Shown here piece after piece: positions 11,012-44,467 of a stretch of 64,000 nucleotides of DNA. The stretch comes from Clytia hemisphaerica (lineage: Eukaryota; Cnidaria; Hydrozoa; Leptothecata; Clytiidae): assembly GCA_902728285.1 (NCBI GenBank), contig CACVBU010000250.1, positions 832,145 to 896,144 of the forward strand, in the 5' to 3' direction. Numbering within the stretch: position 1 is the stretch's first letter; every line of letters starts with the position of its first letter. Both the position numbers and the translations under genes were made by a program. The notes beneath the pieces are model-generated. The model was not told the origin of the DNA, did not search any database, and was given only the letters and a program-made list of their open reading frames with translations.

Positions 11012-13598
11012 CTGAATTTCACAGGAGATACTGATGAAACTCGTTGAGCTTTCAGGGCAGGTTTATCCCTTTTCGCCATTGATTCTTCGTGACGGCGATC
11101 AAGTTTCCGTATGAGTTCTGTCAATTCAAGGGGACGATCTTTCAGGGTTTTCCTTTTAAACGAGTTGTTTGCGCCATCCTCTTCATCCGTCATGTCATTC
11201 GGGTTTACACCGGCCCACAATTCCTCCTCCCGACCATCCTTGATATATTTTGTACGTGCATTATAAAGCTAAAATGGAAGTTAAAAGGAACTGAAAGCTT
11301 TTCTTTTCCTTCCTCTGAGTTATATCAACCAATGATTGTTTGAGAAGAGACAATATGTGACCCCCCAAGCGATTTGGAGTACATTAAAAATGAGACCCGT
11401 CTTGGTGCGGACAGATCGATAAAATGTGCGGCAAAAAAGCGGCGAAAAGATTACCGTGCGGTAAAATGATACCTTTGTATCTACCAGAAATTATCCAAAA
11501 ATCTTTCCTAGAAATTCCATTCAAACGCACTTGATCGGCCACTAAAGAGCACCATTAGAATAAGTGCGGTCATGGTGCGGACATTTTTGTTTTTATTGTT
11601 TTGCTTGTTTGAGCTCGAGGCTGAAATTCTTACGGCAATCGAAAGAAATATAAACAAACGGCGGGGACCGCACCATCGTCCACTTTCGTCGGCACTTTGT
11701 CTGCACGGATCATACAGTACTGTGCGGTCTTCTGGCCGCTTTTTTCAGCTTTTAGTCGCACAATTAACCAGTCCAAAAGCGGCAGAGGCATGACCGCACC
11801 AATACCGGTCTCATATTTAATGTACTCCAAATCGCTTGGGGGTCACATATCTTGTACGCACTAAAACAAGTGTGAGCTTAGTTTAGAGTTTTGATTACCC
11901 ACGACGTAATTTTTTGTGAGGCTAGCTTAAGCATTTAAGGTTGCAAAGCTTACCCGTTGTTTTCTGGAACGATATTTCTTCTTAAGCTTGTCTTCTCTGT
12001 ATTTCCCTGGATCATTCAGCTCTGCATCGTGTTCGCGTTTAATTGATGTAAAATGTGTCTTCAAACCCGCTGTAAGAAAAGTCCAATCAGTATATTCATT
12101 CACATTTATAATTAGGAACCTAAATTTACCACCTAAATTGTTATCACTTCGTTTTTCTAATTACAATAATAAACCAATACATATTATGATCGACGGTTGT
12201 AGTCATCCTTAGCCAAGCTTGGCAAAGTTTTCATTGACTCTGCTTATTTCAGTAAGAGATGAGGTAAAGATACAGATTAAAAGTAGTCCCATGTGTTACC
12301 TAAAATCACATCTTCAGGTTGTTTTCCCTTCAACTGGGCATGAATGTCCGCAAGGATTTGGTCCGTTATGTTCCCATTAACCTCTGAATTCCATCTAACA
12401 GAAACAAAAGAAAAAATACTTTGTTAATCAAAAGGTGATACAACGTCAAAATAACTACCAAAATGACTGTTCGTTTCACTCGAATAGATACTTTAAATTG
12501 TAAGACTTGAATTGTTACAAAGTTTACCAAACTGTTATAAATTGGACCTAAAATGCAAACAAATCAAAGAATTATACAACTTACTGTTCAAGTAATTCCA
12601 TTTTTCTTCCTCTGGGCACAAACCATAAGTCCGCACGATCCTTTTCTAAACAAGAAAATAATGTCTATGAGCTATGAAAATTTCAAAATTTCTAGCATAA
12701 AACTTTCCAAAAGTTAATTCTAACTCACCCCTGTATCACCAATCCCAAGATAGCCCTACTTTAAAGGTATTAGGTCTCAAAATCAAAGTGGGCAGAGGGG
12801 TACCAAGCCCCCCTTAAAAATGACACCCCCTCTTTTAGCAGCTGTCTTGAAAAAGCAACATACTCCATCAAGAGTTGTAGAAACAAGAGTTTTTGCTTCA
12901 TTTAAAAGAATGGAAATATAATAATTGTTGAGAAATTTAAAAGTGAATGGAAAACACTCTTTTGCAAGTTGCCAAATCTTCCAAGCCCCCCTCTTTTTGT
13001 CCAAGCCACCCCTTTTATTTGAAATTTTCACAAGCCCCCCTTCTTTTAAATTCAGTAAAATCTCAAAAAAAAACTCAAATCCAAATTAGCAACTTTTTTC
13101 TTCTGCAATAAAAAATAACAGAAAGCCTTGCAAATCTGAGAAATGCCTTTATTGTCAATTTAAGAATGAAAAATGTTTTTAGCCCATTTTAAGCTTTTGG
13201 TTCATAAGCAACCTTACAAGCAACTCCAGGCCTGACCCTAAAAATGGAGTTGCTTATTAAAAAAGAGGACCAAACTACAAATGTGGGTTTTTTTTTGCTC
13301 CTTCAAGTGACGATGATAAATGAAAATATTAGTGACAAAACTAAATTTAAACCATTGGAAAGTCTTTAGTAATATTAATTTAGGGTAATGAATCAAAGTC
13401 CTGCAAAGTCTTACCTGCAAAAATTTTGGAACAGTTACTTTTGTTGATTTTTTAATTGTTTCCAGGTGCTGGCTCAATTTGTTTTCGATGGATTGAAGTT
13501 TTGTTTCGAGGGCTTCATTCTTTTCCCCTTGGCTTTTAACTAGTTCACCAACATTCCTGATAGATTGGGATATTGTGTCTCCCATGTTCGTGATTTTC
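11012..13598 (-). CDS. Unrecognised multi-exon gene with coiled coil and charged basic C-terminus (partial)
   Basis: Five exons join in phase: 13415-13598, 12595-12645 (or starting at 12640), 12300-12394, 11954-12069 and 11012-11268, all with GT-AG borders. The first holds MGDTISQSIRNVGELVK and a heptad-like helix (NEALETKLQSIENKL) ending VPKFLQ. The next give ADLWFVPRGRKMELLEQW, GNITDQILADIHAQLKGKQ, LKTHFTSIKREHD and the basic KLKKKYRSRKQR. The last has an acidic GVNPNDMTDEEDG followed by basic sequence. The helical-then-basic layout recalls C14orf93-like proteins, possibly nucleic-acid binding, but that is a weak guess. The gene continues past 11012. Reading straight from exon 1 requires the 12640 acceptor, or an unseen exon in between. 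No stop or frameshift was met, so it may be a living host gene; introns hold mobile elements. Confidence 0.6.
11353..11850. mobile_element. MITE-like element with long inverted ends ATATGTGACCCCC
   Basis: The left end ATATGTGACCCCCCAAGCG and the right end (reverse complement ATATGTGACCCCCAAGCG) match for more than 50 bases, continuing through GATTTGGAGTACATTAAA and into GAGACC and TTGGTGCGG. Inside, GTGCGG and GCGGT words recur. Size is about 498 bp with no coding function. It sits in the intron between the 11954-12069 and 11012-11268 exons, so it is spliced out of that gene. Confidence 0.8.
12775..13050. repeat. C-rich repeat related to the 13800-14218 element
   Basis: It contains AAGCCCCCCTT, CACCCCCTCTTTTAG and CAAGCCCCCCTTCTTTT, and a segment CCCCTTTTATTTGAAATTTT like CCCCTTTTAATGAAAATTT of the element at 13800-14218. 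Clear terminal repeats were not found, so it is probably a decayed or truncated copy. It lies in the first intron of the minus-strand gene. Confidence 0.45.
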
Positions 13599-18900: not shown

Positions 18901-19882
18901 ATTACTCAGGTAAGTTATGGCATGTCTCAAAAACCTGAAAATTACCATAATTTTTGAAGGCTATTAGCCGGCAGAAAATGAGCAAACCAATGATTTACTA
19001 CGAAGGATATCATAATGAAGTTTCACTGTAGGGGTGTTACCTAATTGTTTTCGCCCTCATTTTCGCGAAAAACCGTAAAAACTAAAAAGTGCTGACGTCA
19101 GCAAAACTTGTTTTTTTAATAACTCCAGTTTGGCTAATGGTAGAAACATGAAATTTGGACCAACGTTGTGTATTATTAAAAGGATCATTTTGCAAAAAAA
19201 AAATTTTCAAAGTTTTGCTTTCGTCAGCAGAAATCTGCAAAATACGAAATTTTGCAAAAAAGTGCTGATGTCAGCAAAATTTCAAAAAGGAAATTTAGGT
19301 TTAGGAAATTAGTCGGACATTTTTACCTGCACTTTTTAAGCTCTTCAAATATTGTTTTTTAAAGTGCTTATAATATAACCACACATATCCTGAAACAATT
19401 AAAAAAAAAACACATAGGTTTTCTATTTTGTAGGGAGATTCACACAAAACTCCTACACAAATCAAACATTCAAGTGTTTTTCTTTTTAATCGTTTTTAAC
19501 AACTTAAAAGTCATTAAATTGTTCACGACATTCACAATTGAACTATTTTATTGTCTCTCATTAATAGCAACAGAGTAAAAGTACAAAATAAAAGTGACAA
19601 AAAATCAAATTTCTAAAAGAAAATCAAACAAAAATTCTACCATTGTATAATACCGTGGTATATCAAGAATTGTTCAATGGCTGTTTTGCCTACTGGTATA
19701 TAATAATCAAAATTATATCCACATGGGGAACTCCTAAAAGAAAGTAGACAGGTAGAGAAGACTAAATTGGGTTTTTAAAATCAGCTTGGAGCATAAAAAC
19801 CTGCAGGACACCATCTTTTTACAGAAATATTTTTATCCATGATAATTTTGTCTTACTTTAAAGCATTATATTTTGTTTTAGC
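18901..19882. other. Intronic or intergenic DNA with two GCTGACGTCAGCAAAA-like words
   Basis: AAAAAGTGCTGACGTCAGC at about 19084 and AAAAAGTGCTGATGTCAGC at about 19257 form a direct repeat around a region with no gene. They carry the TGACGTCA core found in the fold-back elements of this window. Confidence 0.4.
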
Positions 19883-20652
19883 ATGATGTTATGGCTCCAG
19901 AAGAAAATTTTAATGATAATGGAAATGATGACCTTGATGATCTTGTAATATCAATGATTTCTTCTTATTTACAGGACGATACTCCAGATCACAGAATTGA
20001 TGCAGAAGTTTTGGATGATACTGATTCGTGTGACGAATTTGAAGATACCCCTCAAAACGAATCAATTATTTTTGATGATGGAAACGAAAAAATCATTATT
20101 ATGCTTATGTACCAACCTTTTGCCCTTCAAACAACATACTCAATTTCAGACAATGTTATGGGGATCTTGTTGAAATTGTTCCACTCGTTTTTGACACAAT
20201 TGAAGTCGCATGACGGTGTTGATGATAAGTTTTTGAAAAGTTTTGCGGGATTTATTTTTGCGAATTTTTGTTTTTGAAAAGTTTTGAATACATGATTTAT
20301 TTTTGTGAATGGGGGCCAAATCCGCCCAAATAAATTACTAAGTCAAGTTGCTTAAGATGTTGGCCATTTTTCAGGGTTGAACCCTTAGCAACTCACTTGC
20401 TTATAAAAAATGTGTATATGGGAACCTTATTTACTGTATTTAAGTGTCTACATTAGCAATATACTTTTCCAGTCACTGTATTTTTATAGTGTCTACATTT
20501 TAAACACAGGCTGTACTTTCCAATCTTTTTACTACGAAGTGAAGCTAAAGCATTGTCACTTTTTTGGTCTTGGCATTGCAATGAACGTTTAAAACAATTA
20601 ACAAAAGGTTCGAAAACATTGTGCGATTATTTACGTTTTATTCTATTGACAG

Positions 20653-23305
20653 GTGAACTGGTTTCTATCGAAGAAGCTGATGAAAGACGGATAAATTATG
20701 AAAAAGATGGACATGGATGTTTTATTTAAAAAATTTCTAACACGCAAAAATAAATACCATAAGGTAAGTGTTGTTAAAAACTTACCTTAATAAGGTAGTC
20801 AGTTAAATAGGTACTGCCAAATGAGCTTAATTTTTTTTTATTCTAAGGTCAAAAACAACTAGTCAATTTGGTCTGGTCTAAGAAAAAAATTTAGATTTAG
20901 ATTCAGATTTGATTTGATTTTAATTTGAATGAGACTAGTGATATTAGTTTGAGTTCAACAATTTATCTCTTCAGTTTGGATGCAACATTGATGGAAGGCT
21001 ACGGAAAATATATCAACGATTCACCAAAGTGCCTAGCCAATGCAATAATGAAAAGACAGATAGTGGATCAAAAAGTTCGTCTTTATCTTGTCGCATCCCA
21101 AGATATTGAGCAAGGAACGGAAATCTGGTAAGTTGGCTGGTGGACGGGAAACATTTATCTTTTTAGGGTCAGCCTGGGTCAGCCTATGGTTCGTTCAAAA
21201 AAGAAACAAACCTTTCCTCACAAAAAAATAATCCTTTCAAAATCATAAACTATGAATGGAAATTTAGAGGTTTCAGGCAAGAGGGTGTTATAAGCGTAGA
21301 GTTATCCACTTAGTTTCAAAAAGAAAAATGCTTACATCCGGGTGTCTGAATCTGTCCTACCTGATTATGAATCATCGATTCATTTCTTTCTTCCAAACAA
21401 TCTTTAATAATTTCCACCACCAAAAGAAAATGTTTTGTTTCGTTAAACAAAATTGCTAAAAGAAAACCTGAAAACTAAGACCAACAACACGAGGAATAAT
21501 TACAACTGTTACTACAACTGTTGTTAGTCATCCAGTTTTACCACTCGACTGGACAGCATAAATTAAATAACTTTGTTATGAAAAAAAAAAACACAACAAC
21601 ATTTTCTTTCAAGTTCATAACTATTGAAAAAACAGAAAAATTCGATTTTGCAATGATTCGCAATGGAATGTCTTCTTTTTGTGACTTGGCGCCCAAATGT
21701 TGTTTTGATATTTTTCGGCTTCGTAGATCAGCCTGGTTTGGACTCGATCTTTCATAAAATGGATTATAAAAAAGTAAGGCCAAACTTAACCGACCCAGTC
21801 CAATCTTGGACGATCTAAGTCATTCTTGGTTGTTCTTGGGCGAGTTGGACGAAGAACAAAAAGGCCGAACCTAGCCGAACATGAATGTTATCTAAATCGC
21901 GTGGCAAGACACATTTGTGGCTTTTTATTATATTCCTTGAAGTCTTTACTCACAAGGCTGGGAAACCAATTTTTTATTCACAAGGCCTGGAAACCAATGG
22001 CTCAACTACTACATGATAGGCCTCTAAGTTACAGAAAATTGGTAAAGTTTAGCTTAATGTGGTGTTGCTGGGTGTTGCGCAAATTTGCCAGTTTATAGAT
22101 ATGAATTTTGAATAGTTATTGGTTGATTGTTTTAACAGGAATGACTATTATGATTCCGAAGAAAACATGGTATGGAGAAAAATGGTAAGAGAAGCAGTCA
22201 GTTTTAGTTTCCTTTAAGTCAATCAATTCATTTAGACTGTTTTAGACTCGGACCTCTGCAGATCATTAGAAAATTTAAACATTTAGGTATTGCAGAATGG
22301 TATAGTTACAGATTAAAACTTTTGAATAATAGATAGTTTTAAAAGTCAATATTGAACTTTTCAGTCTGTGTAATCACACATCTATATTCTTTATTTTTTA
22401 TTGTTCCATTTTAGAACAAATGCTTGGCTCCATTAACGAGCTCTCTTACATCAGAAAGGTGAGATGTTTTAACAAACATAACCTAGGCTAAATTGTTTTT
22501 ACTTAACAAGGATACATGGTTGCTTTTATTTTTAGACCTATCCTAAGGTAGTCCTATAAACTAACCCTTGTCCGCTCGTCTGTCCGTTTGTCCTTCTGTT
22601 ACCAGCTTTTTATCAAAAACCATTCCAGTCACCCATACCATTTGAGATACTGGAGAATGCTCTGTAGATGATTATTATTTCTCAATTTCAGAATAGAGGT
22701 TGACATCATGGAGAGCATTCCTGAAGATGACTTGAGTGATGCTGAATCTGTTGTGTTTGAATACAATTCTGGAGTTCACTTTTGTGTATGTATTTTACTT
22801 ATCACCCCTTTAACGATTGTGCTTTTTCTATGAGACTAAAATTATTAAATACCACAGCCTTTGCATGTTTTTGTTCTAAAATGCATAGTCACTTTTGATA
22901 GGTTGTTATAACATACACTTCTTTCAACAAAGTGGCTAAAATGACCAAAAGTACACAAAGAATCAGAAAAGTTTCAAATGTCTGATTGTGATATTGGTCC
23001 ACAATAACTCCTGTTTGATACTTTGATACATATTAGTAATTTAGGGACCCAGTAATCTCATAGCAGATCTTCCATTGCTCTAAATCAAGGTCTGGTGAGA
23101 CAACATTTAGTAGAAAATATACATAAACAAATCTGCTTTGCCATCTTTGTTTGAAACAAAAGATCGCAACAGACTGATTGAATTTGAAAATTTGAAGGTT
23201 TTTTATTTCGCGAATTTAGGAATACACCTATTAAAATATTTATACAGATCTGCAATACAAATTCTAAATTTTCAGAAGGAGAAAAAGACCAAGCGTTGTT
23301 ATTAA
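20653..23305 (+). pseudogene. SET-domain (KMT5A/SETD8-like) lysine methyltransferase gene, partial or damaged
   Basis: Exons: 20653-20763, 20975-21127, 22139-22184, 22415-22458, 22692-22785 and 23276-23305. All but the first join in phase. Exon 1 reads GELVSIEEADERRINYEKDG, matching the SET segment after the first strands. Exon 2 carries SLDATLMEGYGKYINDSP, NAIMKRQIVDQKVRLYLVAS and IEQGTEIW, the position of the cofactor-binding N-H-S motif (here NDS); exon 3 continues NDYYDSEENMVW where the family has the DYG motif. The tail is acidic (SIPEDDLSDAES) and ends basic (KEKKTKRCY). Lesions: an in-frame TAA after GCFI and a one-base frame change before exon 2. No exon for the N-terminal half was found upstream. 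Histone or protein lysine methylation would be the role if functional. It lies 204 bases before the recombinase-like gene, same strand. Confidence 0.65.
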
Positions 23306-23509
23306 GAACTTGACTTCAAAGGAGAACTGGTATATACCTTATTGAAACATATTTTTGTGGGAACTATATTTCATGGGGGTGTCAATTTTAACAGTTTTTT
23401 TCATTCTGAATTTTAACACCCAAGAAGGTTTAAATTATTTCTTATTTCAGAGACCAGTCTTTGACATAACACAATGAGGTTCTAATAGTTTTAAACTTCT
23501 CTGTAACAT

Positions 23510-26500
23510 ATGGAGATTAGTGATAACTCTGATTATGGTGACAACTCTGATTATGGTGACGATGCTGATGGATTGATTGGTTTAGATGAAATGGTATGTA
23601 TTCTAAGATCTCTAATGTACAGATTCGTTAAAATGATGACAATCATTGGAAATAGAGGAAATTGAAATCGTAAACCAATTTTCGAATTTCTACAAAGGGA
23701 AAATACACGATGGTATTTATTAAATCATTTTTAACTTATTGGGACTGATTGGGATGTAAAATTTTATGCTTTTTCCAATTAAGGGATTTTAAGTACATAA
23801 TTTTTTTCTGAATGATACTAACAAATCGATTGGCATTTTGCCTGCAACCCTCCTGTTCAGTCCAACAATTTATCAATTACAACAAATTTTTGTCTCCATT
23901 ATAAACTGCTTGCGTGGTCACGTATATTGTTAAATGTAAAAGTATTTATAATGTCTATACTGTCACAAAAATTGATAAAATATTCACATTCGTAAGTTCC
24001 TACTATCTTCCTTTGTCCTATTCTGCAAAGGTTAAAATCTATTGATTTTGTCTCCCTCTGTAATTTTAAATAAAAGGAAGATTTTTCATTCCATAAAAAG
24101 ATTTATTTTTGAGCAAACATCAAAGCGACATAGGGATACCTCAATTTTTCTAGAAAAGAAATTTTTGGAAATTTTAAAGTAAGTTTGCATTCAAACAGTT
24201 AACATGCCAAATCTAACAGACCGATTTCAATGAAGACTAACTCAATGGAATGAGAAGATTTTAAACTTCTAAACTATAGAAATACACCAATCATTTTTGT
24301 TAAATCAAAAGGTTAAGATATACAGAATTGATTTTCTCCAGACAGTCAAAAGACCATCGTGTATCCTAAAGAGGCTAAAATAATTCTGAACTCAAACTGT
24401 CCAAAACCAATACCCCTACTGAAAACTTCAAAAAGTCTATGCACAGGCAATTAGAGTATTTTTGTGAAAGATTAAAACAAGATCAACCTCTGTTTGTCTT
24501 TGTTGGTGAAATAAAGTGGTGATAGTGGAAAAAGATGAGAAATAGTACATGCTTACAAGTGTTGTGTTTAAAACAACTTTTAATTGGAAACCTTCTTTCA
24601 AAATTTCAGATCCAAACAAAGTTAATGTTGAATGAAAACACTCTGAAACCAAATGAAAGCAGTCAGACTCCTAATCAAAGCACTCAGAATCTGAATCAAA
24701 GGACTCTTAATACTGACCAAAGAACTTGGAATGTAGCTCAAGGCAATCAGAATCCAGATCAAATCACTCAGAATCCAGATCAAATCACTCAGAATCCAGA
24801 TCAAATCACTCAGAATCCAGATCAAATCTCTTAGAATCCAGATCAAATGAATCAGAATCCAGATCAAATCAATCAGAATCCAGATCAAATCAATCAGAAT
24901 CCAGATCAAATCACTCAGAATCCAGATCAAATCTCTCAGAATCCAGATCAAATCTCTCAGAATCCAGATCAAATCACTCAGAATCCAGATCAAATCTCTC
25001 AGAATCCAGATCAAATCAATCAGAATCCAGATCAAATCTCTCAGAATCCAGATCTAATCACTCAGCATCCAGATCAAATCTCTCAGAATCCAGATCAAAT
25101 CACTCAGAATCCAGATCAAATCACTCAGAATCCAGATCAAATCTCTCAGAATCCAGATCAAATCAATCAGAATCGATGCAACGAACAGGTAACATATTCA
25201 TTTTTCTCAGAAAACTACTATTTGGATATTAATTGGTCGACAAACCATAATGTTGAATTTTTCAGGTTTTACCAATTTCTTCAAACCATTGTAGGAAAAA
25301 AAATTTAGTGTTAGAAATAAATATATTCTACTCTAAATTCATCTATTGATCAGAAATTACAAACTTTTTCAGAAAAAGGTCAGAACCATGGCCTGAAAAT
25401 TTCCTATCCCAAGATACGTAGAAATTCACTTTTAATTCTTTTCAACGAGTTTCAACGTGTCAGTTTTCCTAGCAACTTTGTTATTGAAACTTTCTTTATT
25501 TGCTTTAATTGATTCACTTAAGTTTCTGGAACTGTTGTCTACCTTCTAAATAAACAAAAAAGGTAATTTGTTTTCTGCAAAAATGTCTAATCCATAATGG
25601 CAGAAACATTTTTCTGTTTTGGTTCTTAGGAAGTCTAAAAAACTTTTTTTGAAAATAAAGCCTTGCATACTATTATAAATCAAACGATCAGAAATTTTAT
25701 GCTAATAAAGAAAAAGTCAGAATCATAGTCTGAAAATAAATTATGATCTTGACAATCACTATCTAACAAAGCCAAAAAGTTAGTCACTCAAAGTTGCTAG
25801 GAAAACTGAAATTCCGAAGACAACGAAAAGTGACAAACCTCCATATTTCTAGGTAGATAATTTTCACACCATGTTTCGGACCTTTTTCTTAATCTACCTT
25901 AAAGGAACTTATTTTGGCGGATTTGGCGATTTTGGACGAAATTCGCCAAAATTAAATTTTTTGCTCACTCACCATAACAAGTTCCCGCCAAAATTGAATT
26001 TTTTGTTTCCTTGCCTAAATAACCCCTGAAATTCATCAAAATTGCTCAAAATAAGGCAAAATAGAACAGATTGACGCTGTCATTCGCCAAAATTAGTTCC
26101 CGCCAAAATAATTTTTTTTAGGATATTTGTTTGCTGCCTGCCAAAATTAGTTCCCGCCAAAAAAAGTTCCCTTAAGGTATATGAAATTTCTGATAGAATG
26201 ATTGTCAAGTTTTTGAGCCTTTTTTATCGAGGGGTCAAATAAAATAGGGGAAACCCCTAATTCTGCCATTATGGATTTTTGACCAACATCTAAATAGGGT
26301 AACAGATATTTTTTTAAACCCCATGGTGATGTAGTTTAATTTCCACTGACAAATTATTTTTATCGGCAATAGCCTACAGGGAAAATCCGAGTCCTTAAAG
26401 CAGATTTCATTTTTTCTATATTCTTCACAAAACCATCAAGCATGTTTCAATTGTCAAAAAACTGATTTTTGAAGCCAGAGCTTTCAAAAAATTGTCAGAA

Positions 26501-29500
26501 CAGCATTTTATCGCCCGAACAACAGGTTTTCTTGAATCTTTCAGAGCTGTACTTTATATTTTCTCATAAAATTTTGGACATTGACTCAAAATAGCAATAT
26601 CTAAAATGTGACGAAGCCTGATTTTTTTCCGAAAATGCTGGAAATTGCTTCATTTTTGCAGATTTTCATTGGACTTTCCTAACATTTCATTTTGTTTTAA
26701 ACTTTTGGAAAGCTTGAAAATATAGCCTTGAAAATGCTTGACAGTGACGCTTTATTGAAATATTGGTTTGGTTCAAGTTAGGTTTGCTGATTTCATTGCT
26801 TAACAAGTCTTCTACGAGATTACCTTGAGATCAATGAAGTTCCCCAATCAAAATTTATGGTTTTCCCCCTCTTTAACCCCCCCATCAAATTTCAAATTTT
26901 TCATTTTCCCCCATACTTTCAAAAATTGGGCAAAATAATAATTCCCCCTTTATAAGGGGGGAGGGGGGACACTATGTGTTTGTAAGTACTTCTATTGACT
27001 TGATACTATAGTAAAGCTTCAGTAAAATCCCAATCATTTTCATTTTAAGGTAAATTTGGAGCCAATGCAGACCCCGCTAAACGATTCTGGTATTCAAATA
27101 TCGAATGATCTAAGTATTATTGATACAGATGACGAGTTCCAACCAATACCTCCTTTACCCTTTCTTGCTTCGTTGGATGTAATGCAGTCAACATCTGAGA
27201 CTGAATTGTCAAATCTCTCACTTAAGAAGCACGTGTCCACCGAAAAATGCCCAGTTTCTTCAGAAAAAAATCAAAGTCTATCTACAAAATTAAAAGGAAA
27301 GAAAGAAAACAAGCCAGCTTCACGAAAGAAACCTAAAAGACCATGTATCTTTTGTAAAAACTTGAAACCTCAATCCAGATTGAAGCGACATATACTGACC
27401 ACACACAAAAATGAACCTTCAGTGGTTCCATTGCTTTCTTTATCTGAACGCGAGCAAGACAAAGCAATTGACCAACTAAGAAGAGATAGTGTCAGAGCCT
27501 ATAACATGAAGATGTTAGATAATGGAAATGGGGTGGAATCGTTCCAGCGAGCAAGAACAAGCAACAATCAGTCCGAAATGGTTATGTGTGCAGGCTGCAA
27601 GGATTTTATTGCTAAATCATTCAAATCAAGACATCAATGTCCAAATTCAAACACCCCTGTTGTTCCAGTCGTATCAATCAATGACACTGTTGTTAATTCC
27701 ATCAGTGAACTGAATAGTGGATTCAAAGATCTACTAAATACTCTGCACCTTGATGCTGTAGGAAATTATATCAAAACAGACAAAATTATTCTCATGGTCG
27801 GAGAACGATCTTACAGTGCCATAAAGCGAAAGAAAGACAAGTTGTTGGCAAATTCAAGAACAGTTAGATCCCTAATAAGATTAATGGCACGTGTTTACCT
27901 AACTTTCAAAGAAATATATGACGGCCAATCAGCTGTTGTCATTAACGACATGGCAAACAATGCATCTGACATGTATCGGCGTGAGGGACTATCTATATTG
28001 GCTGAAGCGGCTGACAGATTGGCACTGAAGGAAGATGAAACTACTGGCCAAACAGAAGTTGTGGATGCCCAGAAAAGTGGCCTTAAGATATCTATTCTTA
28101 ATATGATCAAGAAAACTGGTCAATATTTGATTGGTAACTTTCTAATGAAAAATGAAGACAAAAGATCGGACTATGTTGTCATGTTTTTGAAAGTTCTAAA
28201 AGGCTTTGAAAATGATCTGTTTGGAGATGCCTATTACGACATTGCAAACAAACGCAACAAAGTATTAAGGAAGCCAGTGAACCTGCCTAAAGAAGAAGAC
28301 GTCACATTACTTCTTAACGAATGCTCATCAATAATGGCCAAAACCGATCCAATGGCTTTTCCAAAAAACATTGACGACAAATATACTAACATCCGTGCTG
28401 CAACTGTGACATGCCTTATCATGTTCAATGCTCGTCGAGGTTTGTCTATTTTTTTTAAATAGTTAACAAGAAATTAATATCCAATTTTTTTAACTGCCAT
28501 AAAGGAAGAAATTTTAGCAAAAAATAAAACTGATTGATCCAAATCTGAATGAAATTAGATTGAAAATTTAAATTCACATTTCCTAAATAAGCATGTCCAA
28601 AGTAGCCTTTTAGCCAACTGTTAAATCAAGAACACACCTAAATGAATACACTTGTGGTAACTTTACAACCCACGCAGTTAAACATAATTTCATCTATTCA
28701 CATACCTGCAAACACTTCTCAATTTTTAGGTGGGGAACCATCGAGACTTTTCATGGAACATTGGAATGAGGCCCTCAGGGGCGAATGGGTCAACCGGGAA
28801 GATTTGCCTGAAGAGTTCGACGAAACAACCATGTTGGTCACTTACCAAACTGGGAAGGGGAAAGACCACCTGGTCCCAGTGATCTTCCCAGCTGAAACAT
28901 TGCCAGCCATCAAATATCTGGCTGATCCAGAAGTCCGCAAAGCCGCTTGCGTCTTGGAAACAAATCTGTACCTCTTTCCAAGTACACAGAGCGGAAAGGG
29001 ACATGCAGATGGATGGCAGTCGATCGATAACATCCTGCAACGACTGTCACTAACAGGCGCAATTAATGCAACACGTAATCGTCACAGAGTGGCCTCAATT
29101 TTAGCACGGTTAGAGATGTAGGAGAAAGAGAAAGATCTCATATTTAAGCATTTTGGACACTCTGAAGAGATTAACGAAGGCATTTACCAGGCTGCAGGTG
29201 GCTCGCAGCAGTTGCACAGTACCGGCAAGCATCTGATGCAGATTTATGAGAACACCAAGGTAGTTCTAACTCTTGTTTCTTTTTTTTTCTAGGATTTTGC
29301 AATGATGAATTCTTATGCGGTTTTGCGCTGAGTGGAAACTTCATTTTCAAAACTAGATTCACACAATTTTACTATATTTTGTTACCACAGGTCTAAGGAA
29401 AAGATTTTATCGGAAATAAAAACTAGGCGAAATTTAGCCAAAATCTGCAAAGTTAAAGGTTTTGTGTTCATTGAAAGGTCTGATGATGTTGATGTTTAAA

Positions 29501-32500
29501 AACAAGTGCGACAAGATTAGAAAAGGTTTCGAAAAAATGAAAATACATTGAATAAAAAACATTCCTTTAACAAAGACTTTAACTGATACTCTTTCGAAGG
29601 CAGGAAACCCTCGATGGTGATTTAAATGTTTTCACAGGATATCCGATAAAACTAAGTCCTAATCAACGAACAAAGGCATGCAATTGTAAAATCCGATGAG
29701 TTATAAACTTCTTAAAAACAAGCGCCAGAATAAATCACAACTTGCATTTTTAGATAATCAAACTGTTTTAACAATTTTAGTGGCTGTCCAAAAAGTCAAA
29801 CGCAAGAATCCTGAAAGAATTAATCGAAAATCAGGTAAACCCTTGAGATTTTTTTTCTTTAAAGAGATAATCAGATGAATTTAATGGCCCTGAAGAAACC
29901 TCCATTTTTTGGCCCAGTCATTTTTTCCTGAAATACCTTCAGGGAAGAAGTCTTCGCGGAATTTAATTTTGCGGTTCACAGCTCAAAATTCGGAAGTTTC
30001 ACGGGAATTTAATTTCTCAGTTGAGAGAATGTTTTGTTCACAATATGGCCTATTTTGCCCTAAAATTACCAATTTTTGGGGAGTTTTTTCAAATCTTGAA
30101 AATATTTGTGTTTTGCGGAATTTAATTTCGCGAATTGCCAAAAAACTTAAAAGTAAATTTCTTTCAAAGATTTCTTCCCTAAGGGTAGGTCAACCCTAAG
30201 AAATATTTTGTTTCCGGTTCACCGGCTAGGTGACAACTTTTTTCATTGTCACCCGGCAACTTTTCCAATTTCAACATTGTCTGCACTTGCGTGACAAATT
30301 TTTCGACGTTAGACAGTGAATAGTGTGTTCACTTTCATTACGGCAGGCCTGGAAACAGAAGGGAAAGAAATCATCAAAAGGACCAAAAAACTCTTTTAGT
30401 CATTCCGGTGCGAATCAGTACCAAACCCCAAACTTCATCTAAGGCAACTTGTGACATCATCAGCGGCCTATTTGTAAGCCTTTTGACTATTAAAGAAACT
30501 CATATAATACCCAAAAATAGTCAAAGCAAACATCGGTACAAGCTCCACACAGATATGTCTATTTTGGGGCATTCTGGCCAACTTGGTGCATTAGGGGTAG
30601 CAGGCTTGGTGATTTTCGGAATCAGCACCCAAAAAATGTCCAAAAATCTATTTCAAGTAGCCAAATTAGTAGTCCTGCCATTAGGCAAAAACAGTACACT
30701 CGTGATGAGATTCCTGGTCCCTTATCTCAGCTAAGGAAAATAATCGGGTAAAAAGATTTGGAGGTTTTTCTCAGGGTCTTAGAGTGAGTTTTAGGATCTG
30801 GGTGTTGTTTAAGTGTGGAGAGCTTTACGGACGCGGTTTGACCTTTGTTCCTGTTCAGGTGTCACGTGAAGATGAAAGGCTCTAGTTGAGCATAACTTCT
30901 CGGGACAATCTTCGATTTTTTTGAAGTTTTGCCAAACTAAATATGAACCTTGGAGGTTATTTTAGTCAACGGAACATTTCTGATCGATTGGTATATAATA
31001 TGTATGGGTTTGAGTTGGAAACAAATATTCTCAGATAATTAATGAAATCGAAAACGAAAGTGCTCCAGATCTCCGGGATAGGAAAAATTTTGGACCATGA
31101 TCCTGACCTTTTTTGTGATGAATGGAAAGTTTCTGTTGGATTGGTTTATATAGTCCATGGGTAGTGTGAAAATTTTGTCTCTAAAACATGTCATATGATA
31201 TGCCGTTGGAAACGTTTTCTCACACTGATTCTAAAAAACATCACAACATATATCTGAACACGGACTTGGTCCAAGTTGTCATCAGTAATTAAAAAAACAG
31301 TGAAAGTAAAAAGTGGTTCATTTGAGACAGTACCTTCTGGTGAACAAAAAATATTAATATTGTAAAAAATACGATAAACCCTGCCTTTAGATTTTAGGTG
31401 CTGACCCTCTTAGAAGCGCAAAAATTAGTTCGCGTGAAAATGAGTACCCTGAAATTAATTGAAATCTTTCTATTCTTCAGGAAATTATTTAATTGATGGT
31501 AGCGATGGCTCAGAATCTGACTTAGGTATGTTATTCTTACTTAAAATTCATTGAGAGGCTAATCTATGATTATGTTGATCTAAATCAAACTTGCTTTTAA
31601 CAGGACAAAGAAACTTAGAATGGAGTCGTTTTGAGGTCAACTTTTATGTAGGCTACGGGCGTTCCCTAAATAATTTTGTTACCCTGTTGTTTTTAAATTG
31701 TTCTTGTCGGTGATTTCTACTGTTTTAGAGAATCCAAATCGGGGGGGGGGGGGTACTTTGGCTAAGGATAAGTTGTTCTTTAACCCTTTCAGTCCCAGAG
31801 TTTTCACAGCTACTTTCCCAGAGCCGTAAAATGAGTTTTTGAATGCATTTACTCATGCTTCAATATCTCTAGAATCACTAAAACTACTCCTCTCAAGTTT
31901 TCACCCTTTTTCACTTATAGTATGAGGATCATTTTGATAAAAAAAAATTTGCAAAATGACGTCATCAGCGTGTCACGTGACCAGAGAAAGGCAAAAAAAA
32001 ATTTGAAAACAGCAATTTTTTGCCATTCAATGGTAATTTTTTTTATGAAAAAATTATTTAAACCCATTCATTCTTCTGATAAATGTTTAGCACAACAGTA
32101 TCTATTAACTGAAAAAAGAATTGTTTGACTAGCCCTTATAGAAAAATCATAATGATTGATAGAAGTTGTAAAAAATCCCATTTTCGGCCTTACAGATTTT
32201 GCTTGCAAAAATTTTTGTAAATACTTTTGTAAACAAAACTTTTTACTCGAACAAGCTTTTTTCACGCGGTCTTTTGCACACGACGAGCTATCTTATCTTC
32301 TTTGAAAGCTGTTTAAAGAAATCTCTTTATTTCCTGCCAAAACATCACAATTTGAAAAATAAATCAGAGACCGCTATGCAGTCCTCTGGGAAAAAACGAC
32401 GGGTCCAAAGGGACCGCAGTGCGGTCGCGTGGGACTGAAATGGTTAAATTCTGATTCATTATTGAAAGGAAATGAGTCATCAATACGCTATAATGCAGTA

Positions 32501-34290
32501 TAATGCACAATAGCAACAAAAAAACACACATGAGGCAGTTCGCTGGAACAAATTTAGACCATACGCATCCCCTATATCCAATCAAGTTAGAAGGGATGCG
32601 TGCCGCCTACATCATATCGAACTAAGAGTGTGTGATTTGTTTTACTCTTTTGTTTAACCCTTGTGCACCTCAGTCCCCACTCAGTCTGCGGAATATTTGG
32701 GTTCAAAAAGTAAATGTGACGAATCTAATATCTTCAGACAAGTGGGACCTTGAACCCTAGTCTCGTTTACCTTTTTTTGCGTGTTGAATTTTTTTCACTC
32801 TTGACCTTACTTATTTGGTACATTACTTCATTTGTAGTTCGATTAATTTCAGAAGCAGATGGTGAGAAGTTTCGCCCTGATGAAGATGAAGAGGAAGATG
32901 AAGATGAAGAGGAATCGGTCATTAAAGGTTCAGCTTTAGTCATCTAAATTTTAAGTTTTTAGGTCAATTCCTGGTGAAAAGCAGAAATACAAAAAAGTCA
33001 CCCAAAATTAGTTCCCTTAAAGTATAGTCTCGATTTCCAGAATATTATATAAGGCGAGAGAGTTTTTATAAGCTTATTGTATAGGATGATTGGCGCAGTT
33101 GTTACATGCTATTTTCTATTGAATTTTGGTCAAATTTTTCCTCAACTCAATACGGAATTTAAAAGTTGTATTCCATTGTTATCGTCACGGGATGCAATTT
33201 AGAAGCACTTTTTCCAAACATCTTTAAAATTTAATTCTCATCACAAGGTTAAATTAATATGTCCAATTTTTTATTTCAGATATACCGAAACAGAGAACTT
33301 ACCACAGATGGTCCGAAGAGTCTAAATCCGACTTTGAGAAAACCTTTACGAAATGCTTGGCCGACGACAGAGGATTTCCTGGTAAGATAATTTTTCGATC
33401 CGTATGCATTCTTCTAATTCCAAGATGAGTTTTCTTCACTTTTTGGGCCTACCTCGGAGGTCCTTTAAATTAACTCATGTTCGTCCGTTCGTTTGTCTCT
33501 TACCTTTTCTCGGGACTGGCTCATTATTTCTTTCAGATTTTTTGCAAGATGCGTATTAGCAATGCCCAAAACATGACCGAGTCCGATTTTTGAGAAAAAT
33601 TTCCCAGCCGAAAATGCCGGAAATCGCCTTTTTTTGCAGAATTTCATTGGACTTTATCCTACTATTTCTTTGTTTTTTTGACACGAAAACGTTATCGATA
33701 GCAATGCCCACCATCAAGCGTATTTCAATTGTTAAAAACTGATTTTTGAAGCCGGAACTTTTTAAAACTCGCCGGAACAGCCGTCGCCGGAAAATAGTTT
33801 TTCTTGAATTTCTCGAGCTGCACTTTATATTTTTTTCATGAAATTTTGTACACTGATACAAAATGGCAATACCTAAAATGTGACGGAGCCCGATTTAAAG
33901 AAAATTCCGGCGGAAAATCCCGGAAATATGCCTTAAAAACTTTTTTTTTTTGGCATTTTCTCGAGATTTCATCATAAGTTTTCTCTCTGATTTTATGCAC
34001 AATTTTAACAAAGAAAGAAGCGTGTTAGCAATGGCAAAAACATGGCCTAGTTCAATTTTGAAGAAAATTTTTTTCCGGCCGAAAATTCCGGAAATCGCCG
34101 TTATCGCCTAAAAAAAAGACAGTAGACAATTGTTTTGTTGAATTTCATTATTTTAGGTAAAAAGGAGGCTGCTGCGTTCATGGGACGACATCACGTTACC
34201 GCGAAACAGATAAAGACACGTGTAACTAATTACCGGAAAGATCATAAAGATAAGAAAATAACATTGATGAAAAAAATGGGCATTCATTAA
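23510..34290 (+). CDS. Large gene: 7-residue repeats, C2H2-like fingers, tyrosine-recombinase fold, Myb/SANT-like end
   Basis: Exons: 23510-23593 (MEISDNSDYGD, acidic), 24610-25188 (NPDQITQ repeats), 27050-28439, 28730-29259, probably one ending at 29834, then 31481-31525, 32853-32927, 33280-33381 and 34157-34290; splice phases agree except around 29259-29834. The 27050 exon has two fingers (CIFCKNL..H...TH and CAGCKDF..H..C) and a helical domain. The recombinase fold runs from FNARRGGEPSRL (first Arg, split by an intron) through NRHRVAS (second Arg) to GHSEEINEGIYQ (His and Tyr). Acidic linkers (SDGSESDL, EDEEEDEDEEE) lead to RTYHRWSEESKSDFEKTF, a Myb/SANT-like DNA-binding end, and a natural stop. 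From memory this order matches an uncharacterised fish/cnidarian family, perhaps Crypton-derived. In-frame TAGs at 24832-24834 and 29119-29121 make this copy doubtful. Confidence 0.65.
24745..25172 (+). repeat. In-exon minisatellite, 21-bp unit, about 20 copies
   Basis: The unit is AATCCAGATCAAATCACTCAG with variants CTCTCAG and AATCAG, encoding NPDQITQ, NPDQISQ or NPDQINQ. Upstream (from about 24630) the same 7-residue period continues in degenerate form (NESSQTP, NQSTQNL, NQRTLNT), which marks this as the ancestral reading frame. Because 21 is a multiple of 3, a second plus frame (SRSNHSE) and a minus frame (DLIWILR) are also open; I take those as shadows. One unit carries TTAG in place of TCAG, a stop in the NPDQ frame. 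Confidence 0.9.
25189..25894. other. First part of the intron after the repeat exon
   Basis: AT-rich intronic DNA after the donor at 25189. No exon or repeat was recognised before the TA-flanked element at 25895. Confidence 0.35.
25895..26179. mobile_element. TA-flanked MITE, ends CCTTAAAGGAAC / GTTCCCTTAAGG
   Basis: The left end TACCTTAAAGGAAC and the right end GTTCCCTTAAGGTA are inverted repeats with TA at both borders, as in Tc1/mariner-type insertions. The body alternates GGCGAATTT-like and CCGCCAAAATTA words in both orientations. It is intronic in the large plus-strand gene. Related ends occur at 29934-30187, near 33013 and at about 35007. Confidence 0.75.
26340..26760. repeat. Dispersed repeat, copy 1 (pair of 33480-34110)
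   Basis: Shares ACTGATTTTTGAAGCC, AATATCTAAAATGTGACG or close variants, CGAAAATGC.GGAAAT.GC and TTTCATTGGACTTTCCTA with the copy at 33480-34110, in the same order and orientation. No open frame. Both copies are intronic in the same gene. Confidence 0.6.
26865..26970. repeat. C/G-rich repeat end resembling the ATACT-flanked MITE
   Basis: CCCCCTCTTTAACCCCCCC and GGGGGGAGGGGGGACACTATG face each other across about 80 bases. The end ACACTATG resembles the terminal GAACTATG of the 13800-14218 element. Only one end is recognisable. Confidence 0.4.
29934..30187. mobile_element. TA-flanked MITE, ends CCTTCAGGGAAGAAG / CTTCCCTAAGGG
   Basis: TACCTTCAGGGAAGAAGTC on the left and (reverse complement) TACCCTTAGGGAAGAAATC on the right, with TA at each border and GCGGAATTTAATTT-like interior words. 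It is the same broad family as the 25895-26179 element and lies in an intron of the large plus-strand gene. Confidence 0.65.
30188..31480. other. Intronic DNA of the large plus-strand gene, no exon found
   Basis: No segment here has both splice sites and a protein-like frame in the phase required. The open frame at 30408-30734 has no recognisable domain and is not supported. Confidence 0.35.
31741..31753 (+). repeat. Thirteen-G homopolymer
   Basis: A run of 13 G immediately before TACTTTGG, intronic. Similar runs occur at about 46431-46442 and 47088. Confidence 0.9.
31780..32447. mobile_element. piggyBac-like MITE with TTAA borders
   Basis: The left border TTAACCCTTTCAGTCCCA and the right border (reverse complement) TTAACCATTTCAGTCCCA are inverted, each starting with TTAA, the target duplicated by piggyBac transposons. 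CCCTTTCAGTCCC is a piggyBac-like terminal repeat from memory. The 660-bp body includes TGACGTCAT and no transposase. A similar single end, TTAACCCTTGTGCACC, stands near 32654. Confidence 0.75.
33480..34110. repeat. Dispersed repeat, copy 2, with internal CCGGAAAT reiteration
   Basis: Matches the 26340-26760 repeat. Within it, GAAAATGCCGGAAATCGCC, GAAAATCCCGGAAATATGCC and GAAAATTCCGGAAATCGCC recur at roughly 240 and 180 base spacings, so the repeat is itself partly tandem. It lies in the last intron of the large plus-strand gene. Confidence 0.6.
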
Positions 34291-34504
34291 CACTGTTGGT
34301 CGTTTGTTTTTTGTTTTTTTTTGTTAGCTACTTTAATTTTATTCTTATCTCCAACGTTAAATTTTGTTCCATTTTGGCATGCTACCTCCAAAGTTTTTTC
34401 TAGAAGTTTTTTTTATTTAAGGTTTTTCTATTAAAACTCGTTCCGTTTAGTACGTGCGTAGTTTCCTCTTTGCTCTACTTTGAAATTTGCTGCGTTTTGA
34501 GAAC

Positions 34505-34676
34505 TTACTCTTAGGTGCCAAATAAACGGTTGATTAATTTTTAAGAATATTTTCAGTTGGCAAAAAGAAGTCCCCTTATCTTGCTCCAAAAGCTTGATTT
34601 TAGTCTATCTTTACCTTATTATTGGGTTTTCAGAAGTACAATCCCCCCTCCCCGTTTATTTGCCACCTAAGAGTAA
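34505..34676. mobile_element. TACTCT-family MITE, copy A (short)
   Basis: Ends TACTCTTAGGTGCCAAATAA and (reverse complement) TACTCTTAGGTGGCAAATAA, flanked by AACT on both sides (34502-34505 and 34676-34679), a possible 4-bp duplication. The reverse strand matches the interior of copy B at 35503-35797: GTACTTCTGAAA, ATAAGGTAAA and CTGAAAATATTCTTA. Confidence 0.8.
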
Positions 34677-34679
34677 ACT

Positions 34680-35502
34680 TTTTTATCCACATGAAAGTTT
34701 TTTAAATCTATTATTTGTAACATTTTTGTACTAGTATAATAATTTCGTACGATTCATCTTGGGTGAGATAAGTGGTTTAAAGTAAACATTGAAGTCTTTT
34801 AATCCTCTCCTGGGTTTGATCATGAAGCTAATGAGAAGTTTGATGGAATTTCTTTCTTTTTTTCTGTAAAAGTCTAGTGGTCTTAAAAGTATAACTGTCT
34901 TTGAACTCGGTTTTTTGATCAATGTATCATTAACAGCAAAATTAGTCGAGATGTTTTGTGAATTAATATCTCGCGCTTTTTTTGGGAAACGCTTACTTTT
35001 TCCTACCTTAAGGGAAGAAATTTTGGCGAATGTGTGAAAAAGTTTTTTCGTAGAGAATTTAATTTGACGGATCAGGGAAAAAGCTAATTTTGGCGGGAAT
35101 TTAATTCAGCGGATGACAGATTTTTAAATCCGAAATCAGGGTGAAAACATTGATATTGCACTCTTTTAGAGGGTAAATTGGTAAAAATCGGACATAAAAT
35201 TAATGATACACTCACTTTATCGCTTCGTAGCACATTCTGTGCGCATTATCTGTTTGATAAGAAAAGTCCCGTACGAAGAACCTCTGCGATGAAGTATGAT
35301 TTATAAATAGCAACACTTCTCTAATCATCGTCTGCCCTCTCTCACCAACACTCCATTGCAGCGGTCGGTTTGAAAAATCTCAAATGAAAAAAGACGATGA
35401 CAACAGACCCTCTACGGCCATGAATTCAGCCCGTAGATATCGGGCTGTGTACAGACGGGAGGGTTTTCGATATATTAATTAGCGGGGGCGGGTTACGTGT
35501 AT
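34680..35502. other. Intergenic; one TACCTTAAGGGAAG end near 35007
   Basis: No gene. At 35007 TACCTTAAGGGAAGAAATTTT repeats the end of the TA-flanked MITE family, but I could not find its partner end. Confidence 0.4.
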
Positions 35503-35797
35503 TACTCTTAGGTTCCGAATAAACGGGGGGGGGGTTGAAAAATTTTCTAGATTTTAATAAACGGGGGGGGACCTAATTGCCGGGGGGGTTGGAAATTGTA
35601 CTTCTGAAACCCAAAAATAAGGTAAAAATAGGCTAAAATCAGGCTATTTAGAGCAAAATAAGGGGCCTTCTCTTTGACAGCTGAAAATATTCTTAGACAT
35701 TAATAAACGGAGGGGGTCCTAATAAGGTCCGGGGGGGTTGGAAAATTTTCGAAAAATTAACAAGCGGGGGGGCCCGTTTATTTGGAACCTAAGAGTA
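35503..35797. mobile_element. TACTCT-family MITE, copy B, with long G runs
   Basis: Ends TACTCTTAGGTTCCGAATAA and (reverse complement) TACTCTTAGGTTCCAAATAA. The interior has repeated AATAAACGGGGGGGG and CGGGGGGGTTGGAAA blocks, all with G on the plus strand. Opposite orientation to copy A. Non-coding. Confidence 0.8.
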
Positions 35798-36159
35798 GGC
35801 AGCTAAGAGTAGGGATATTGTGCTTAGATTTACCAAAAGAGATCTGCCCTTTTTAGCCAAAGTTCTTCATTTCGTCCTTCGAAATTAGTGGTTGAATCTT
35901 TTTTTCTCAGTGGTTTGATTCCAAGTTACATTTGGAATTTTCGGTTGACGTCATATAACCTTTTTGGTAGGAATTTTCGCTCGTACTCATTTTCGCGCAC
36001 GAACAAAATTTTTATCACGCACTAGCGAATTTTTCTTGTATAATTTTTTGCACACGAGGCATTCATTTCCCCCTAAATTTACCACTTTTAAACACAATTT
36101 TTCGTAAATTTTGGCTTGACTTTGCTTTGGAATCATTATGACGAGGAAGAGCCCAAATT

Positions 36160-36520
36160 AGTGGCTTTGTGACAATTTAGATCGATATATACACAGTGTA
36201 CGATGAGCCTACATTTTTGGCCCTAAGGCGACAATTGATATACTTGATACGCCAAAATCTTTAGCTTTAAGGCGACAATTATTGATATATTTGATACGCA
36301 GAAATCTTTGGCCTTAAGGTGACAATTTTGATTGGTATATTTGATGTATCCAAACTTTTGGCTTAAAGTTGACAATTTGGGTCGATATATTTGATGCGCT
36401 CAAATTTGTGACTTTAAGGTGACTAAATGGGTAGGCACATTTGAATATGTGCTCAAATTTGTGACTTAAGGGTGACAATTTGGATTGGCATTTTTGTATC
36501 GACTTTAAGATGACAAATGA
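36160..36520. repeat. Tandem repeat, unit about 44-52 bp (GGCGACAATT...TTGATACGC)
   Basis: Units run from GCGACAATT or GTGACAATTT through GATATATTTGATACGC to CAAATCTTTGGCCTTAAG, six to seven times, with gradual divergence. Consecutive units start near 36170, 36229, 36273, 36320, 36369, 36420 and 36473. Relatives of the GGCGACA word and its complement TCGCC continue to about 36860. Confidence 0.75.
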
Positions 36521-37022
36521 ATTTCTGATTTTAGATCTAGAAGACGATTCGATTTTTAATTTCATTCGGTAAGATAATTTGATGGTCGAATATCCTACAA
36601 TAAATTTGTCTTAGAGGCGACACAAAAAATGTCGCCTTTAAGCGAAGTCGCCTTAGAGTTGATTTTGAATATGAATTTCTTAAAGGCGACATTAAAATAT
36701 GCAAAAAACGGTATGGCGACAGCAAAATTTTATATGTCCCCTAAATTCCAAGCATTGACTTTTTTAATAGATTTTCATCGCCTAGAAGCCTTGTCAAGGC
36801 TTAATCTATCCGATTGAGGCTTCAAAATGCGACTAAAAAGCGACAATTGAAAAGTCGCCCTAGAGTATAAATTATTACTATGTCGGCCATGCGTAGATAA
36901 AGGCTTTATTATATTTCTCTAATCATATTGAGCCATACAATTTTCCCGTATGCTTATAAATAAAAAAGAGTGTAATCAGATAATACTTCTAAAAATAAAA
37001 CAAAAGAGGTTAACCAATCATA

Positions 37023-43049: not shown

Positions 43050-44460
43050 AAGTTGAAATTAATTCTTCTCTGTTTGTTGGTCATGCTTCTTCTTCTTTTT
43101 CTTCTTTTTGCGTTTTTCCTTCTCTCTCTCGGTGCCTTTCTTGTCTTTCTCGACGTCTGTGGATCTTTTGTGTGTTCGTTTTTTCGACATGGTTGATACT
43201 GTTGATTGTATTGTATCGTTGGATGCGGTGCTCATTTTGTCGGAGTCGTCGGAAATGGTGCCAATCGGGTCGATGGACTTTGCACCAAGATCTAATTTTC
43301 CACCAAAATCTAACTTGTTTGGAGTGTTCAAATGAAAATTAATTTGTGTTGTTGGTTTTGTGCAAAGGGATTCGTATTGAGGTGAGGTATGAAAGGCGTC
43401 GTTGTTGGAAAGTGTCTGGTTTTGTAGTTCGATTTTCTCAGCCAGTTCCTTTTGGGATATCCTATCCCCTATGGTTCTTTCTGTTGGTCGTTTGATGATT
43501 GTTGGTGTTTAAGTTTGGACATTGTTGATAAGGTCGACAGGATTGTGTCGTTTGATGATGTGCTTTTGTCAGTGTCGTCAGAAATTGTACCAATTTGATC
43601 GATGGGTTTCCCACCGAAATCGAATGTGTTTGTGGTTTTGATATCAAATTTAATCTGGGTTGTTGTTTGATTGCAAAGGGACTCTGGTGAGTTATGGAAA
43701 GCGTCGTTGTTGGAGATTGTGGATTGTTTTTTTAGTTCGATCTTCTCGGCCAGCTCCTTTTGAAAAATGTTACCTCCTTTCGAAATTAAGTGTTCGTACC
43801 TTTTTTGTTGTTGGTCTGTCAGGGCAGAGATATCCAATGGGTCTTTTGACTGTACTTTCATTGGCTCAGTAGGGACGTCTATTGTTTTTGTCACGTTGTC
43901 GTCGTTGGTTGGGTCCGGTTCGACGTTCTCTGGAGGTCTGGTCCGAGTGTCTTTTTTCCAAAATGGCGTCTGCCAGTTGGAATCACCCTGAGGCTTTCGA
44001 CCTCAAAATTAATGAAGAAAGTTTCTGCTGGTGTGTCTTTTAAACCTACATGCCAGCCTACCAAAAATATGCCATGTTCGTTGGAGAAGCGATGCCCTAG
44101 AAATTCCACATTTTCCTTCTCAGGGAATGAATTAAAGAGTTCCTTTTCCCCACAATATGCAGGAAAGTTAGGCACGTAAAAATGTGTTGGTTTGTTGTGT
44201 TTGCCAGCTATTTTTGTACCGTTGATGGTTATGCCTTCTCGAACGAGGGTTTCAAAGTCGTGACTTGTTTTAAAAGTAAAAAGGTATCTCGAACGGAATC
44301 TACTGTCTCTTTGGATTTTGTAAATTAAGTCCTTAACAGGCATGTTGAATTTCTGAGCGAGTGTCTTGATAACAGTTGAAGAAATATCCTCAAAAGAATT
44401 GAGGTTATAAAAAATAAACGTTCTTGCCTTTCTTTCTGCAAAGCTGGTTGGCAGTTGGTC
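43050..44460 (-). pseudogene. LINE ORF1 (RRM-like, Lys-rich tail), copy 1
   Basis: From 44460 down: RTFIFYNLNSFEDISS, MPVKDLIYKIQRDSRF and RSRYLFTFKTSHDFETLV form an RRM-like RNA-binding domain; GIFLVGWHVGLKDTPAETFF follows, then a linker (KDPLDISALTDQQQKRYEH, ISKGGNIFQKELAEKIELKK) and a strongly basic tail (43059-43331, KRKKKKKKKK). Frame changes at about 43890 and 43470 divide it into three open pieces. ORF1 proteins of this kind coat LINE RNA. A 125-bp piece of the same ORF1 is found again at 48706-48830. Confidence 0.65.
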
Positions 44461-44467
44461 TTGTACT

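Follow-up and report, generated by a model that had tools for sequence, protein, structure and literature searches.

A decayed Clytia hemisphaerica locus, probably of a mobile family, fuses a SET methyltransferase to a tyrosine recombinase

We analysed a 64,000-nucleotide stretch of the Clytia hemisphaerica genome (contig CACVBU010000250.1, positions 832,145 to 896,144; hereafter the window) that carries coding pieces of a SET-domain methyltransferase upstream of zinc fingers and a tyrosine recombinase (YR). In our assessment, this locus is probably a decayed copy of a long SET–YR element, encoded as one gene with large introns and belonging to a mobile family in which the methyltransferase is tethered to the recombinase. 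The existence of a SET–YR fusion family is near certain, and the family is likely to be one of transposons. The window copy itself is broken, by a frame break in SET and a stop codon in YR. Along the plus strand, the SET pieces are followed by a linker of 21-bp repeats, the zinc fingers and YR, and a C-terminal module that ends at 34290 (Table 1).

The window carries a broken, probably single SET–YR gene

Searching with the Hydra protein P0016 (tblastn) yielded colinear plus-strand matches across the whole locus: 20652–20726, 20976–21125 and 22137–22184 for SET, 27104–28441 and 28729–29271 for the zinc-finger/YR part, and 33309–33386 and 34156–34284 for the C-terminal pieces. The SET and C-terminal pieces are each weak alone (E 9e-5 to 7.4). 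The three SET pieces correspond to P0016 residues 36–60, 74–124 and 125–140, with E values of 0.02, 9e-5 and 7.4, the third being weak by itself. Pfam SET matched the second piece at E 2.6e-4 (21.8 bits, slightly below the 22.4 cut-off).

The SET frame stops directly after GCFI at ~20727, ahead of both candidate splice donors, 20763 (phase 1) and 20767 (phase 2). At the same intron, six of the seven Clytia relatives listed remain open to a phase-2 donor, and the seventh has none. A second Clytia copy, C410, contains ~320 extra bases between its matches to window 20432–20728 and to 20730 onwards, while the match of a third copy, C22, starts at 20730, the same point as the frame break. Together, these observations indicate a rearrangement at the break, in which bases were either lost from the window or gained by the other copies.

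The zinc-finger/YR exons join in phase across intron 28440–28729. They are 43–67% identical to Hydra P0016 and P0055 and Clytia P0034, and the window YR is 100% identical to the NCBI C. hemisphaerica protein P0001 across 92% of the query. The catalytic residues R, R, H and Y occur in order; an in-frame TAG precedes the GHS...Y segment, so that the window copy is cut off before the catalytic H and Y. The NCBI model of this gene starts in the 24.6–25.2 kb repeat and ends at the same TAG, and the corresponding stretch of C410 is listed without stops. Downstream, the C-terminal exons match Clytia P0034 (E 1.8e-8 for the exon at 33280) and, weakly, Hydra P0016 (E 0.04 and 0.08). An acidic motif, [LIV]NDSG...[IV][IV]D[TS]D, lies ahead of the fingers (27077–27136) and is found in 16 of 233 collected proteins, the window's included, mostly from Clytia and unnamed environmental members, as well as in the Clytia locus C332. 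We take it to resemble a SUMO-interaction motif.

An earlier note on this DNA had described a separate SET gene followed by a second gene with its own ATG at 23510. The SET coding pieces (20652–22184) were recovered by tblastn and Pfam, with a broken frame. Two genes became doubtful because the relatives are single proteins and C410 is colinear across both halves; we dropped that default on this sequence evidence, and the SET and YR parts, ~5–6 kb apart, are most likely one gene. In other Clytia loci, the open frames between SET and YR likewise contain repeats. The ATG at 23510 was not upheld, an open phase being its sole support and the NCBI model starting elsewhere. Two Cys/His finger-like motifs bore out the proposed fingers. 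The proposed recombinase stood as to residue order and matching exons in relatives, with the qualification that the TAG intervenes; the agreeing splice phases held for intron 28440–28729 and failed at the first SET exon, which stops before either donor. As for a Myb/SANT-like end, the exons up to 34290 are supported by P0034, and Pfam returned no Myb/SANT row at E up to 1 on the spliced C terminus (one short sequence, one library).

Table 1 Features of the locus, with positions in the window
Feature	Position	Strand	Basis or remark
Block common to the window and the C410 copy; candidate duplicated or mobile unit	20432–36920	+	95–98% identical, colinear, inserts in both copies
SET exon A remnant, GELVSIEEADERRINYEKDGHGCFI, frame broken at 3' end	20652–20729	+	tblastn, comparison of relatives
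SET exon B, LDAT...INDSP...EQGTEIW	20975–21127	+	tblastn, Pfam SET
Probable SET end, NDYYDSEENMVWRKM; YDYG...W in relatives; weak alone	22139–22184	+	tblastn E 7.4, colinear with Hydra P0016 125–140
Putative linker exon, MEISDNSDYGDNSD...	23510–23593	+	Sole support, open phase-0 join
21-bp tandem array, 25.7 copies, between SET and fingers	24635–25174	+	7-residue repeats in NCBI protein model
Main exon: LNDSG..IIDTDDE acidic motif, two Cys/His finger-like motifs, YR core-binding domain, catalytic Arg box NARRG	27050–28439	+	
YR catalytic exon: GKGKDHLVPV Lys; TRNRHR; FGHS; EGIYQ Tyr	28730–29259	+	
In-frame TAG, cutting the GHS...Y part off the window copy	29119–29121	+	Also end of NCBI model
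Nested short high-copy repeat	31780–32448		At least 35 other copies, 94–97%
Acidic linker exon, ADGEKFRPDEDEEEDEDEEES	32853–32927	+	
C-terminal module, first half, YHRWSEESKSDFEKTF...DDRGFP	33280–33381	+	
C-terminal module, second half and stop, KKEAAAFMGRHHVTAKQIKTRV...MGIH*	34157–34290	+	

Fused relatives link a SETD8-type SET domain to the recombinase

A protein search with the window YR yielded 83 proteins, and SET is present in Hydra P0016 and P0055, in crinoid P0064 and in abalone P0080, and is partial in urchin P0060. Conversely, 27 of the 34 proteins in the length range found with the abalone SET region also contain YR at E < 1e-10, and by that stage 31 of 116 collected proteins had both. 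A search seeded with the YR of urchin P0109 gave 343 matches; in the 120 listed, YR is present in all and SET in 23. Overall, SET occurs in 51 of 226 collected YR proteins and is N-terminal in every one of the 51. Single proteins with SET, fingers and YR are found in Hydra, echinoderms, molluscs and fish. Entries lacking SET are weak evidence, since environmental open reading frames and single-exon models miss upstream exons. A fish record, Xyrichtys P0090, has the same type of SET together with Pfam C1, DDE_Tnp_4 and part of the YR region; here SET may travel with a second kind of transposase, or the record may be a chimeric gene model.

The window SET pieces are too short for a SET8 comparison of their own, and the type is read from relatives. 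The best sequence rows for the SET part of abalone P0080 are KMT5A (1e-30), and for the predicted structure of urchin P0109, ranks 1–23 are all SETD8. The fused SET is thus of KMT5A/SETD8 type, nearest to SET8 among solved SET domains.

Across the family alignments, the YR residues R, K, R, H and Y are invariant or nearly so, the exceptions being P0084, P0086 and P0108. Pfam Phage_integrase matched 7 of 38 A1 members at E up to 0.5 (best 9e-4) and 5 of 22 A2 members (best 5.4e-6). Predicted structures of the Hydra and urchin relatives show a core-binding and a catalytic domain as in Xer/Cre recombinases; two fold re-alignments covered Foldseek's best 1000 chains. A PDB sequence search with the A1 profile returned mostly zinc-finger rows, none better than E 0.14, and no recombinase, and the window protein alone gave no YR/Phage_integrase match in Pfam; YR membership is accordingly based on the family sets and the folds. 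Fold matches, with weak but repeated sequence matches, support both domains, contrary to the earlier note's refuting condition that neither would be matched significantly.

A YR tree of 50 rows selected from the collected proteins resolved two fully supported clades. Clade I unites the window and Clytia C332 with Hydra and bilaterians, and clade II unites Clytia C99 with echinoderms and fish; SET is present in each of the 18 clade II rows selected, these rows having been found largely via the SET search. Each clade spans hydrozoans and bilaterians; both are old, and the family is at least as old as the split between them. In the SET tree, fused SETs separate from the host SET8 rows, of which there are only two (support 98/84), and the window SET groups with Hydra (85/76). 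This tree is poorly resolved and does not mirror YR clades I and II, so it does not establish a single fusion event.

SET lies upstream of YR at other Clytia loci

We searched the Clytia assembly (417 Mb, 951 contigs) for both parts. For YR, 48 matches, short or weak ones among them, merged into 30 loci; the Pfam SET search gave 50 matches in 47 merged loci, ordinary host SET genes included and the window's SET exons absent. At 4 of the 29 non-window YR loci (C332, C99, C628 and C248), a SET lies upstream on the same strand within 30 kb, at distances of 9.6–22.2 kb, against an expectation of 0.05. No SET/YR pair in any other arrangement was present within 30 kb of the 30 YR loci. The YR of C332 is uninterrupted (10821–12443 of the joined stretch) with its Tyr present, and that of C99, of clade II, has one frame change.

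The pair could in principle be a SET gene lying by chance beside an unrelated YR element, as the ~5–6 kb gap and the weakness of the SET part alone would allow. Fused proteins in many species, the four other same-strand Clytia pairs against 0.05 expected, and the colinearity of C410 through both parts make this exceedingly improbable, and we rejected it on the fused proteins and the Clytia pairs. The same gene order recurs elsewhere, contrary to the earlier note's other refuting condition that the two never adjoin at further loci. The earlier proposal of a mobile SET and YR module fits the evidence better than accidental neighbourhood, with the amendment that the module is probably one gene and the window copy decayed.

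Copies, edges and the case for mobility

C410, on another contig, is colinear with window 20432–36920 at 95–98% identity; it is without the 31780–32448 repeat and has other inserts. C22 covers window 20730–22481 and 33360–36916, and C558 covers parts of 29879–33844. The right edge of the shared block falls at 36920 in C410 and 36916 in C22, four bases apart, and the left edge, 20432, is merely where the C410 match ends. The nested repeat, a young non-autonomous element, is missing at this spot in C410 and C558, so its insertion probably postdates the separation of the copies. Three entries of the pipefish Vanacampus, on different contigs, are 97.6–99.8% identical over ~1090 residues. No reverse transcriptase was noticed by eye in the open reading frame lists for window 20.4–36.9 kb.

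Several observations weigh against a mobile SET–YR family. No terminal repeats, target-site footprint, empty site, circle or RNA of the element were seen, and the right end shares no 13-mers with window 12–27 kb; the search for ends beyond 20.5–34.3 kb suggested earlier thus produced a right edge in two copies and no terminal repeats. Near-identical copies could also arise by segmental duplication: the matches of C517 and C546 begin at the very edge of the sequence read, which is what segmental duplicates or haplotypes would show, and the left ends common to other Clytia copy pairs vary from family to family. No listed SET lies within 30 kb at 25 of the 29 non-window YR loci, in an exon-wise search that misses short exons. 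YR was found at only 2 of the 20 Clytia SET loci read (C332 and C99), of which 13 were read over 10 kb and 7 over 20 kb and not all have a KMT5A-like SET; the 20 kb read at C517, C546, C349, C261 and C860 contained no YR. In the YR, the first His of HxxR is Thr or Ser, and some members have lost catalytic residues: Apostichopus P0086 and P0108 are without the Tyr, and P0084 deviates at the Arg box. In the SET, 32 of 33 aligned rows (three of the rows without clear YR) have ND[x] where SET8 has its NHS motif, so methyltransferase activity or specificity may differ.

A related gene expansion has been described. The available part of PMC10368294, published in 2023, reports 65 KMT5A-like genes in Hydractinia, 61 in S. 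purpuratus, 24 in Hydra and one in Nematostella. In that part, most non-canonical genes have an N-terminal SET, C-terminal ends are similar between Hydractinia and urchin, and 13 genes are on early, with nine more by 7 h post fertilization. The genes are treated as an expansion of host methyltransferases, with mention of other functional domains, and 'recombinase' and 'integrase' are absent from the main text as available. They share with the SET–YR family an N-terminal KMT5A/SETD8-like SET, longer proteins and many dispersed, divergent copies (PMC10368294, same part), and from architecture and species they probably are that family.

If SET–YR genes were a host family, they would be domesticated chromatin regulators that multiplied through ordinary duplication of genes and work, for example, when the zygotic genome is activated. 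Their wide animal range, the introns of the Clytia copies and the duplication of some of these along with their flanks agree with this, as do the counts of 65 and 61, the embryonic expression of some genes and the deep homology of both protein ends (PMC10368294, available part). By contrast, the YR catalytic residues are mostly kept, whereas domesticated Crypton YRs are without most of them (PMC3212892, abstract); the pipefish copies are dispersed and nearly identical; several Clytia copies are broken; and the single Nematostella gene (PMC10368294, available part) implies patchy presence. We judge a host family decidedly unlikely, and the earlier suggestion of domestication is not needed.

Relation to Cryptons and other known systems

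A further alternative is that the element is a known animal Crypton, CryptonA or CryptonV, with an overlooked SET. It overlaps with the preferred reading of a mobile SET–YR element and differs in filing alone. The YR-only DNA transposon logic in animals speaks for it, and a CryptonV group is listed in Repbase (PMC5753468, available part). Cryptons are named without a SET domain in the available parts of PMC5753468 and PMC9341512. Animal Cryptons are described in the accessible part of PMC3212892 as being without a C-terminal domain and without terminal repeats, in a main text without 'methyltransferase', whereas the C-terminal module here is shared with P0034 and P0016. No Crypton/DUF3504 model appeared among the Pfam families listed for two sets (25 of 45 and 25 of 31), its presence in the Pfam copy not having been checked. 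We regard this alternative as possible, on the unlikely side; the Crypton link drawn earlier was not supported in the sense of simple membership of Crypton families.

The element would resemble Cryptons (CryptonA/I/F/S) in having YR as the sole recombining enzyme of an animal element and in its dispersed copies, and differs in the SET, fingers and C-terminal module that flank YR and in its altered HxxR. It resembles Xer/Cre in fold and in R-K-R-H-Y, with only ~8–18% identity in aligned rows, and adds fingers and SET. KMT5A/SETD8 (SET8) is the best sequence match of the abalone SET and the best structural match of the urchin SET; the family differs in its N-terminal SET fused to YR and in ND[x] for NHS. 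SETMAR also joins SET to a transposase, of the mariner type, but is one domesticated fusion, found in primates, and has a DDE enzyme and a different type of SET. PMC3627910 (available part) deals with DNA methyltransferases in viral mariner elements rather than with SET. Our search of the open-access literature found no paper linking KMT5A with a tyrosine recombinase and none describing a SET–YR fusion family.

Proposed mechanism and implications

The gene would encode an N-terminal KMT5A/SETD8-type lysine methyltransferase, a repetitive acidic linker, two zinc fingers, YR and the C-terminal module. The fingers and core-binding domain may recognise the element ends or the target, and YR would excise and insert the element via a 3'-phosphotyrosine and Holliday-junction pathway, as Xer/Cre do. 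The tethered SET could then methylate H4K20 or another lysine on chromatin at the recombinase's site, for instance to open or mark it, or to make the event coincide with the part of the cell cycle when host SET8 acts. An active methyltransferase serving transposition is a plausible hypothesis. Only tentatively do we propose the fuller picture: an ancient YR transposon lineage with an active H4K20-type writer in the same polypeptide, marking the chromatin it cuts and miscounted as a host KMT5A expansion that takes in the genes turned on when the hydrozoan genome is activated.

If correct, the family would consist of transposons that bring their own histone-modifying enzyme, joined to a site-specific recombinase, an arrangement in which nature couples targeted editing of chromatin to the integration of DNA. 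Dozens of hydrozoan and urchin 'KMT5A-like' genes, together with uncharacterised fish genes, would be selfish elements or their derivatives rather than host regulators, and the early embryonic expression of KMT5A-like genes would have to be reread. With this family, one could also ask directly if H4K20 methylation aids a transposon in moving, in evading silencing or in choosing when to move.

Other features of the window

A viral origin was considered and rejected: the A1 alignment gave 28 pattern matches against viral contigs, none confirmed. At the right end of the shared block, 36200–36870 contains repeated GGCGAC/GTCGCC words and direct repeats spaced 44–53 bases apart, possible candidate recombinase binding sites. 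Just outside the block, a ~380-bp repeat (18905–19288) has dozens of copies, mostly at 91–93%, on both strands (fold-back). On the minus strand at 5378–9430, a 1350-residue frame overlaps a 778-residue frame, with reverse-transcriptase-like text and a recombinase-like C-terminal end; judged by eye, it looks like a DIRS/Ngaro-type retroelement. Two further minus-strand regions, 43469–44472 and 59987–60733, contain open frames with long similar text, KPQGDSNWQTPFWKKDTR..., and represent an unassigned dispersed repeat.
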